Part shown: piece by piece, positions 8,668 through 10,691 of the stretch
How the letters are laid out: each line of letters opens with the position of its first letter
Numbering within the stretch: the first letter of the stretch is position 1
Source: a virus
Virus record (IMG/VR): IMGVR_UViG_3300044695_001953
Location: 1 to 23,295 of that record
Reading direction: 5' to 3' (one strand)
Length of the DNA: 23,295 nt
Position numbers and translations under genes: made by a program
Notes under the pieces: generated by a model
Databases searched by the model: none
What the model saw: the letters and a program-made list of their open reading frames with translations, nothing else
Told to the model about the DNA's origin: nothing

Positions 8668-9447
8668 TTACTTAGTTTTATGTTCTTGGAATACTTCATA
8701 TAAAAAGTCGTGTGTTAAATTGTTTTCTCGAAAGTATTGGCGAAGCAAATCATCTCTGCAAATCTTTATCTGCTCAAATCTAAGTTCCGGTATGTCTTTC
8801 GGTCGCTGCTCAATAGCATTTAAGAGCGACTGTATAGTCCGTGCCTCGTATCTTTCAGCGTTATCCCTTTTCGCTTTAATAGCTGCGATGGCTCTATCCT
8901 TTGACTTCTCAAACATTTCTGCTTTCTCGTCAATAGATACCTTTATCTGCCCTATCTTTTCCAGCCACAAGTACCCAGCACTGCCACCATCCAAAAATGA
9001 CTGACCGCTTTTGAACTTGTGATACATTGTCACGAGATGCTCGATGGCTGTGTTTAGCTTTTCTTCTTCGCTCATTTCGTAGGGTTGGAAGGATTGGTTG
9101 TTGCGGTGCGCTGCCAATTCCATCTTCACTTTATCCAAATAGGCATACACCCATTTTAAGTATGTAGCTGGTGCGTTGGCTGAATATACCTCCCCCGACT
9201 TCATACCTTGCTCCACAGCTATCTTAAACTGGTCAAGGGTACATCGTGTCTGCTTCAAATCAGTCTCGATCATACGCACAATAAGATTAAGCGTGTGCTG
9301 GTCGTTTGTTACTTGCTGCCCAGCGTAAGCGCAAACCATTTTGTACTGGTTAAGTATTTCAGGTAGCAAGTCTTGCTGTGGCATTTGAGCGCATTGCTTG
9401 CCTTGATAGGCTTGAACCGCTTGGCTGTTATTCGTTGTCGTTATCAT
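8668..9447 (-). CDS. Putative replication accessory protein (helicase-loader-like position)
   Basis: This 259-residue, mostly helical protein has a polar N-terminus (about 1-25) and a long charged helix region (EKAEMFEKSKDRAIAAIKAK, near 178-197). It lies directly after the replication initiator and overlaps it by 20 bases, the same order as O and P in lambda, where P loads the helicase. I see no Walker motifs, so it is not a DnaC-type AAA+ loader; a lambda P-like, non-ATPase loader or primosome partner is a guess from position. Such second genes are common after initiators in Bacteroidetes phages. Confidence 0.6.
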   Translation of the reverse strand: MITTTNNSQAVQAYQGKQCAQMPQQDLLPEILNQYKMVCAYAGQQVTNDQHTLNLIVRMIETDLKQTRCTLDQFKIAVEQGMKSGEVYSANAPATYLKWVYAYLDKVKMELAAHRNNQSFQPYEMSEEEKLNTAIEHLVTMYHKFKSGQSFLDGGSAGYLWLEKIGQIKVSIDEKAEMFEKSKDRAIAAIKAKRDNAERYEARTIQSLLNAIEQRPKDIPELRFEQIKICRDDLLRQYFRENNLTHDFLYEVFQEHKTK

Positions 9448-10183
9448 AAATAATCATTGAGTGAAGGTCTGCTTTTACTGCTTTTTCAAAGTTGCTTATT
9501 TTTGTGTTTAAGGTAGGAATTATTATTTCATCCTCCCAGCACTTTCCGTTCAGCCAAGTTAATGGATTTTTCCTGAACTGCACATCGGGAGTAGAGTGAA
9601 CGTAAGCTGCAACTTTGTCAAGCGCAGCGTTCTTTTCTTTTTCAGTTAGTTTTGACCACTTAGCTTGGCACTTTTGTAAATCTTGCTTTTTACCAAATGA
9701 ATCCCAAAAAACATTAAACCATTTATCCTCTTCTCTTTTCTCTTCTTTTCTCTTCTCTTCTTCTCTGTTCTCTTCTATTCTCTTCTCTTCTGCATGATTT
9801 GGCATTGCGACTTTATGCGACCGCATTGCGACCGCATCATTTGGCATTGCGATTGCTTCCTTTCGCACCTTTCTTTTCTGCCAGCCTAACGCAGCATTAA
9901 CACTGTTTTTCTTGCTTGTAGCCATTACCTCATCCATATTGTCATCAAGAAAGTCAATGTGAACATTACTGCCAATCTGCTTTATGATTTTGTATTTCAG
10001 CAGGTATTGATACTCTTCTTCACCGCATTCGAGTTCAGCACGCTCAGCATCCATATTGCATTCCTCTACCCAGTAGATGCAGCACAACCTTAAAAACGAT
10101 ACCTGCACATTTGCAGGCGCTCTGTTTATTCGACCAGTCAACCACTTCGTGGGGTCAAACTTAAACCAATTTAATCTTTCCAT
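9428..10183 (-). CDS. Replication initiator protein (Lin1244/Lin1753-like N-terminus)
   Basis: This 251-residue protein begins MERLNWFKFDPTKWLTGRIN and continues with a winged-helix-like domain (to about residue 95), similar to initiators of Bacteroidetes phages and mobile elements. Next come a 7-residue repeat (AIAMPND / AVAMRSH / KVAMPNH, about 113-133) and a charged E/K/R run (EEKRIEENREEEKRKEEKRE, about 135-154). The C-terminal domain (about 155-251, WFNVFWDSFGKK and NPLTWLNGKCWEDE) resembles the DnaD/primosome-type tail. It would bind the origin, which may lie in its own repeats, and recruit helicase. ATG 10183 is preferred over 10192 because a terminator T-tract runs right up to it. Confidence 0.78.
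   Translation of the reverse strand: MERLNWFKFDPTKWLTGRINRAPANVQVSFLRLCCIYWVEECNMDAERAELECGEEEYQYLLKYKIIKQIGSNVHIDFLDDNMDEVMATSKKNSVNAALGWQKRKVRKEAIAMPNDAVAMRSHKVAMPNHAEEKRIEENREEEKRKEEKREEDKWFNVFWDSFGKKQDLQKCQAKWSKLTEKEKNAALDKVAAYVHSTPDVQFRKNPLTWLNGKCWEDEIIIPTLNTKISNFEKAVKADLHSMIIYDNDNE
9727..9791 (-). repeat. Polypurine/polypyrimidine tract in the initiator gene
   Basis: About 65 bases are almost pure pyrimidine on the plus strand (TTCTC and TCTTC units; only a G at 9767 and an A at 9777 interrupt). It encodes the E/K/R-rich linker. Such tracts melt or form triplexes more easily, and it lies right beside the iteron-like repeats. Confidence 0.7.
9802..9852. repeat. Three direct repeats at 21-bp pitch (candidate origin iterons)
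   Basis: GCATTGCGA (plus strand) occurs at 9802-9810, 9823-9831 and 9844-9852, each exactly 21 bp after the last, about two helical turns. The first and third sit in a longer match (ATGATTTGGCATTGCGA against ATCATTTGGCATTGCGA, 16 of 17). They code for the seven-residue repeat of the initiator linker, so a purely protein-level origin is the alternative. In lambda, the origin iterons lie inside gene O at the same relative place. Confidence 0.6.
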
Positions 10184-10283
10184 AAAAAACAAAAACCCCC
10201 ATATAGATGCGAGCTACATGGGGGCGGTTAGGTTAGTTCCTAACGGACTACCTGAAAGACTCGCATTTCCTTCAGGCAATCAT
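10184..10283 (-). ncRNA. Structured RNA with kissing loops ending in a terminator hairpin
   Basis: Read on the minus strand from just after the promoter-like box, the RNA has three hairpins. Hairpin 1 (10276-10251) has a 9-bp stem CCTGAAGGA/TCTTTCAGG, with weaker outer pairs, and an 8-nt loop AATGCGAG. Hairpin 2 (10244-10232) is GTTAG-GAA-CTAAC. Hairpin 3 (10224-10196) has an 11-bp stem CCCCCATGTAG/CTATATGGGGG and the 7-nt loop CTCGCAT, followed by TTTTTGTTTTTT and the initiator ATG. Loop 3 is the exact reverse complement of ATGCGAG in loop 1, so a 7-bp kissing interaction is possible. It may be an attenuator leader for the initiator gene or a small phage RNA. I know no named class that it matches. 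Confidence 0.65.
10196..10224 (-). terminator. Intrinsic terminator or attenuator before the initiator gene
   Basis: An 11-bp stem with a 7-nt loop is followed by five Ts, a G and six more Ts (10195-10184). The initiator start codon comes immediately after, so any transcript for that gene from the visible upstream sites must read through it. Confidence 0.8.
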
Positions 10284-10288
10284 TTACA

Positions 10289-10296
10289 CAAAAGTA
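10289..10296 (-). promoter_or_regulatory. Promoter -7 box before the structured RNA (TACTTTTG)
   Basis: TACTTTTG fits TAnnTTTG and lies in the gap between two genes, placing a start site near 10283, right before hairpin 1 of the RNA. No TTG is seen at the -33 distance. Confidence 0.45.
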
Positions 10297-10307
10297 CAAA
10301 AACTATT

Positions 10308-10691
10308 TTAAATAGCCTCTATGTTCGAATTAATTTCTTTGACATCAATTAGCCGTTCCAATCCATCAGCGCACCGATTAATGCTATTGGCACGTTCTCT
10401 AAGCGACTTGATTTGCATAAGTATTTCTTTCTCATCATAGCTTATGTAGTACCCTCTGCTGGTCGCTATTAAAGGCGCAAGTGCTGTGCATCGTATGTAG
10501 TTCACAACCTTGCGTAGCCTTACTCCATTAAAAGATAAGTTCGGAAATCGCAGCCGAATATAAGATACAAATTCAGGCTCTTTAATAGGGTTTTTCTTTG
10601 TGTATTTTTGAAACTCCGTAATAGCAAATGGGATTAACTGCTGCTCGTTTGGCGTAAGTTCCTGCGTGATATTCTCAAAGTTAGTTATCAT
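10308..10691 (-). CDS. Hypothetical winged-helix-like protein of the replication module
   Basis: The protein has 127 residues. After ELTPNEQQLIPFAITEFQKY (about 11-30) comes FVSYIRLRFPNLSFNGVRLRKVVNYIRCTALAPLIATSRGYYIS. The pattern V/LRKVVNYIR followed by SRGYY is shared with small phage proteins of Bacteroidetes that look like winged helices, the SRGYY strand being the wing. A C-terminal helix (ILMQIKSLRERANSIN) may dimerise. It probably binds DNA. It starts one base after the SSB-like gene stop and is the last gene before the structured RNA. Confidence 0.7.
   Translation of the reverse strand: MITNFENITQELTPNEQQLIPFAITEFQKYTKKNPIKEPEFVSYIRLRFPNLSFNGVRLRKVVNYIRCTALAPLIATSRGYYISYDEKEILMQIKSLRERANSINRCADGLERLIDVKEINSNIEAI

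Follow-up and report, generated by a model that had tools for sequence, protein, structure and literature searches.

A kissing-loop leader RNA ahead of a phage replication initiator gene and its recurrence among related phages

What occupies the short gap between an early open reading frame (ORF) and the replication initiator gene of this phage, and is it connected to the expression of the initiator? The window, by which we mean the whole stretch of DNA that was analysed, is a viral record of 23,295 bases. Its phage genes lie on the minus strand and include those for the portal, the terminase, an ERF recombinase, a single-strand DNA-binding protein and the replication initiator. A sequence-only reading had placed in this gap two hairpins whose 7-nt loops are complementary, with four G-C pairs, the second hairpin being a strong terminator whose T-tract reaches the initiator ATG. 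All of these elements are present on the minus strand.

The RNA unit fills the interval from the end of the early ORF (10308) to the initiator ATG (10183), and all of its parts are read from the minus strand, in the order TAnnTTTG box, hairpin H1, hairpin H2, terminator H3 and T-tract. The box (TACTTTTG, 10289..10296) does stand just upstream of H1, as had been proposed. We take it to be a promoter box of the -7 type of Bacteroidota, and it places the predicted transcription start at about 10286-10281. H1 had been recognized but drawn too short (10276-10251); it is a 14-bp stem at 10246..10281 with an 8-nt loop, AAUGCGAG (10267-10260), of which AUGCGAG (10266-10260) are the kissing nucleotides. 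H2 (10227..10244) is smaller, with 6 bp, a 6-nt loop and an energy of -5.5 kcal/mol. H3 (10195..10225) has the features of an intrinsic (Rho-independent) terminator, namely a GC-rich 12-bp hairpin followed by TTTTTGTTTTT; its 7-nt loop CUCGCAU (10213-10207) pairs over its full length with the loop of H1, and its T-tract, TTTTTGTTTTTT (10184..10195), directly abuts the ATG. From the positions of the promoter box and the terminator, the RNA is predicted to be about 100 nt long, beginning almost at H1 and ending after H3.

The minus strand of this interval folds with an energy of -45.8 kcal/mol (z = -5.4), and the opposite strand folds more weakly (-30.8, z = -3.1). A strict pattern of a kissing hairpin followed by a terminator occurs once in the window and in none of 300 dinucleotide shuffles, while the chance expectation of a relaxed version is 0.05. 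The kissing-loop observation is thus confirmed as real and far above chance. Neither loop 7-mer recurs elsewhere in the window, in which no further exact target is seen. Gaps of the gene map hold two more hairpins that resemble strong terminators and carry long T-tracts, at 12773-12749 and 23289-23266 on the minus strand.

The genes on both sides give the unit its context. Downstream lies the initiator gene (9428..10183, minus strand, 251 aa), assigned to replication initiation or primosomal proteins by PHROG (phrog_270, E 4e-11; phrog_9327, E 3.7e-9). Within it, at 9792..9864 on the minus strand, are repeats of TCGCAATGCC that are probably iterons and the origin; initiators of the MKDPAF type carry instead ACCCAAA repeats spaced by 11-12 nt. 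These initiators are members of a large group (MKDPAFLFYSSDFL...) that numbers more than 571 relatives. Upstream is the early ORF (10308..10691, minus strand, 127 aa), which belongs to phrog_2113, a family whose function is not known, and whose stop lies about 20 nt ahead of the RNA. DNA similarity to cultured phages is confined to a short, conserved stretch at the C-terminal end of the initiator, and no kissing hit was obtained in the closest cultured relatives that we examined (Flavobacterium morran9-1, Cellulophaga phi10:1 and Tenacibaculum JQ). A tRNA gene is found in the early region of related phages, at 2297-2375 of L006 and 12-94 of L034.

Compensatory changes in homologous phages had been named beforehand as the test whose failure would speak against the RNA, and both loops and stems were found to covary strongly. 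Related viral contigs have other sequences in place of the loops, and to a large extent also of the stems, yet the complementarity of the loops is kept. This close family was found by sequence and structure, and the kiss was not used in finding it. Three loci (L002, L003 and L004) retain the RNA of the window, with a compensatory change in H3 of L004. Three others (L006, L007 and L009) carry a different RNA in the same place, with the loops AGUCGCAG and CUGCGAC, and L008 and L034 carry the loops AGUAAGAG and CUCUUAC. A covariance model built from the window-type RNA only recovers these other loop types by their structure (E 7e-7 to 3e-9). Several members, L002, L006 and L008 among them, also have a TTTG 19 nt upstream of the TAnnTTTG box.

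When the H1 and H3 parts of six distinct RNAs are aligned without gaps, the kissing helix is 100% paired, with double changes in four of its seven pairs. Two kinds of controls, shuffled alignments and alignments slid out of register, were used to judge this covariation: over the whole structure, none of 500 shuffles scored as high on four of the five measures, and the real alignment beat all of the slid controls. Between types 2 and 3, a single one of the 14 H1 stem pairs is exchanged and the closing pair is lost, and yet three of the seven kissing pairs are exchanged. We relied on covariation in place of a shuffle test on each leader taken as a single sequence, which is weak for kisses this short.

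The element is not confined to these close relatives. A scanner for hairpins whose loop matches that of a following terminator, which gives 3.8 hits per Mb on shuffled sequence, found matches in 37 of 80 further loci, every one of them ahead of the initiator and on the same strand as the genes. The true members have 39-48 nt between their loops and a TAnnTT(T/C)G box just upstream (the L243 and L246 types excepted), while chance matches come without the box; L196 and L132 were recognized on visual inspection, once a weak hit of the model or a less strict earlier scan had pointed to them. In L052, L064 and L069 a kissing-like hit recurred that we rejected, as it is one long hairpin without a promoter box. 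By our count the element is present in about 54 contigs, nearly always before the initiator or before a small operon that holds it. Across 14 distinct sequence types, each of the 98 kissing pairs is Watson-Crick, in an alignment whose rows were cut around the matching loops, so that full pairing of these columns is partly a condition of selection; double compensatory changes occur at six of the seven positions. The structure as a whole scores 0.889 for covariation, where shuffles give 0.215 and none of 500 scores as high. Independent evidence is provided by the diversity of the codes, by the fixed place and spacing, and by the close family that was found without the kiss. The loops follow a code of approximately 5'-GU-NNN-AG-3', in which the outer positions are nearly fixed and each of the three central ones takes three or four pair types. 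Own loops match over 6-7 nt in 11 of 11 types tested, and cross-pairs do so in 2 of 110.

In the window and in the L006 type the T-tract lies at the initiator ATG or ends a few bases short of it, so that the abutment first noticed holds for the window. It does not hold for several relatives (L196, L251, L263, L265 and many of L285-L328), in which a small ORF or an HNH-endonuclease ORF lies between the RNA and the initiator. Directly after the terminator, in L251, L265 and many of L292-L328, we observed ORFs resembling NUMOD4/HNH endonucleases, a name given by eye. Comparison of near relatives also shows that the RNA can be exchanged as a module of the replication region and is not strictly tied to one initiator. 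L002 and L006 share about 90% identity on either side of a replaced block, on one side as far as the point where the RNA begins and on the other from the final part of the initiator onward. Between these flanks the RNA and the N-terminus of the initiator have been swapped en bloc; L034 and L008 have the RNA in common and diverge from the start codon on.

A second class of leader precedes about 30 related initiators (L099-L149, L206, L261, L262 and L271) and lies about 120 nt ahead of their ATG. It comprises a promoter box and a 9-bp pseudoknot helix that joins the 5' end to the interior of a terminator-like hairpin, with a conserved 13-aa leader ORF (MKNILNPTITALP and stop) over the 5' arm of that hairpin. 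Its pseudoknot is hypervariable, with double changes in seven of nine pairs and all cells paired. In both classes, the loop of a hairpin at the start of the initiator is matched by a segment further upstream, and this code is hypervariable. The design recalls RepY/RepZ, which combines a leader peptide with a pseudoknot. Apart from these, a third type (L129, L135, L152 and L273) has a large hairpin together with an ORF of about 30 aa overlapping the start of the initiator, and the leaders of L162, L195, L197, L227 and L250, unrelated in sequence, have a segment of 6-10 nt that matches the loop of the terminator adjoining the initiator.

No Rfam family matches the RNA at its gathering score, in agreement with the initial reading, which knew of no named class with this layout; the best match below threshold, the trpB motif (26.3 bits against a gathering score of 59), was judged to be due to chance. 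A literature search, partial in coverage, did not find such an element described. The model of family II gave nothing in 400 cellular genomes, under strict filters that make this weak evidence of absence. The kissing model, searched under equally cautious reading (strict filters, absence counting as weak evidence), gave weak hits in 13 of 395 cellular genomes, and the ten that we inspected were ordinary terminators without a loop match. We describe these kissing-loop leader RNAs as a new RNA family, the principle of control by kissing being itself known.

How could such an RNA act? The sequence-only reading had offered a riboregulator or attenuator of the initiator, or a copy control of the plasmid kind. 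The conserved place before the initiator supports this general view; the choice between action in cis and in trans we infer. The anatomy, covariation, recurrent placement, code diversity and module exchange make the evidence strong for the structure, and it is moderate for the function. We favor, with moderate confidence, a self-type recognition in trans that would tune termination or translation ahead of the initiator, in a manner related to copy number or immunity. The phage RNA, with its own promoter and terminator and about 100 nt of H1, H2 and H3, would head the replication-initiator operon. As both loops bear one self-complementary 7-nt code, RNA copies and the nascent leader could recognize their own type by kissing. 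The terminated RNA would most likely build up with the phage copy number and kiss the nascent leader, probably as a head-to-tail dimer. The kiss would favor the terminator fold and the structure that lies on the start region of the initiator, and initiator output would then drop in a manner specific to the self type. The various codes might accordingly correspond to incompatibility or immunity types.

The preference for trans comes from three points: the geometry of the kiss, the fact that the window shows no further exact target, and the change of code from one near relative to another. Two fully paired 7-nt loops are expected to stack on their stems. By simple A-form lengths, which are not a 3D model, the rigid H1-kiss-H3 stack of the window measures about 92 A, and the linker spans about 33 A when H2 is folded and about 126 A when it is open. 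A rod of 92 A against a linker of 33 A favors trans pairing, and in this simple geometry pairing between two RNAs would face no linker limit and give two equal rods. Against trans, a cis kiss of the window type seems possible if H2 opens, and the linker of some other members is long enough for it anyway. Three further points weigh on this preferred account. The kissing energy (-8.9) is small against that of the H3 stem (about -19), so the route from pairing to changed termination is not obvious, a search for an anti-terminator that would pair with the terminator arms found none, and the presence of another ORF between the RNA and the initiator in several relatives would also speak against it.

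The same geometry bears on the alternative that survives best, a purely cis attenuator in which the H1 loop and the emerging terminator loop alter termination or access to the start codon within one transcript, with no separate small RNA. The terminator adjoins the start of the operon, opening of H2 would permit the kiss within one RNA, and similar initiators are preceded by a pseudoknot form of this idea. We nevertheless consider this rather unlikely: the linker of L263, of about 7 nt, is too short with both stems formed, a cis switch needs no hypervariable code, and no anti-terminator partner was found for the terminator arms, the best upstream duplex reaching -4.3 as opposed to -20.1 kcal/mol for the pairing of the arms. 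A small RNA that acts in trans on another target, such as an mRNA of the host or of a competitor, appears less probable still. In such a case the kiss would serve only to fold and protect the RNA, and its place would be one of convenience, which fits with a complete unit of promoter and terminator whose neighboring genes can differ (L034 against L008). However, the loops change completely among close phages, which is a poor fit to a conserved host target, no second target was found in the window, and the place near the initiator is kept in very diverse phages. We find it very unlikely that the element is an origin-associated primer RNA or a single-stranded DNA structure used by the initiator. 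Although the initiator and its iteron-like repeats adjoin, the stems contain G-U pairs and the minus strand folds better, both of which indicate RNA, the terminator would stop a primer before the iterons, and in L034 and L008 the RNA has been exchanged without the initiator. Genes are commonly preceded by terminators, but an ordinary terminator next to unrelated hairpins with a fortuitous loop match is refuted by the covariation, with the recurrence and the 300 shuffles also against it.

To return to the self-type recognition in trans that we prefer, how does it relate to known systems? Control by RNA kissing is classic in plasmids but, to our knowledge, has hardly been described for the genes with which tailed phages replicate, and least for those of Bacteroidota phages. 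In ColE1, RNA I and RNA II are antisense and sense RNAs, the replication primer being RNA, with seven-nucleotide loops that pair completely; the phage RNA shares such fully pairing 7-nt loops, but neither a sense/antisense pair nor an RNA primer is seen. The CI RNA of phage P4 and the c4-type RNAs of P1 and N15 are short leader RNAs with complementary segments and premature termination upstream of replication genes. They set the immunity type, and the P4 CI RNA is processed. Our RNA resembles them in its complementary segments within a leader upstream of replication genes; the P4 CI RNA, however, lacks the H1-H2-terminator kissing layout, and the hosts differ.

In the repC attenuator of the Staphylococcus plasmid pT181, a terminator ahead of repC is controlled by a kissing antisense RNA, which is a separate molecule complementary to the whole leader; the 5' arm of the terminator is trapped by an anti-terminator (PMC5435934, PMC4878617). 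The phage RNA is likewise an initiator leader with an intrinsic terminator directly upstream of the coding sequence, and the loop-loop kissing that decides specificity in pT181 is what we propose for it. Unlike pT181, no anti-terminator was detected, and the loop that partners H1 belongs to the same RNA, being that of the terminator. A full TTTG-N-TAnnTTTG promoter for an antisense RNA was not seen on the plus strand, where there are only isolated boxes at 9497, 9647 and 10603. In the I-complex plasmids, kissing between RNAI and SLI sets copy number and incompatibility, and a single loop change alters compatibility (PMC10724649). The phage RNA has complementary, covarying hairpin loops like these and the ColE1 copy-control RNAs; the partner loops of the plasmids, however, come from opposite strands, whereas both phage loops are in one sense transcript unit. 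Together, pT181, the I-complex plasmids, the P4 CI RNA and ColE1 are the closest working analogues.

The class is recurrent, strongly backed by compensatory changes and unlisted in Rfam. We would tentatively suggest that Bacteroidota phages hold a large class of homotypic kissing RNA codes, either as a GU-NNN-AG loop with a terminator loop or as a pseudoknot, without an antisense gene. It is conceivable, if no firmer than this suggestion, that such codes, diversified like the incompatibility types of plasmids, set the copy number in replication and make phages mutually incompatible or immune to superinfection. The natural loop alleles, for example GUCGCAG and GUAAGAG, are ready-made orthogonal RNA pairs, and they allow one to test directly whether co-resident phages recognize each other via RNA. 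As a separate observation, one contig (IMGVR_UViG_3300032050_000499) carries two replication regions, L245 and L246, near its opposite ends. They are 87% identical, their kissing codes differ in a compensated manner (GUAUCCG and GUGUCCG), and they represent either two co-resident modules or a chimeric assembly.
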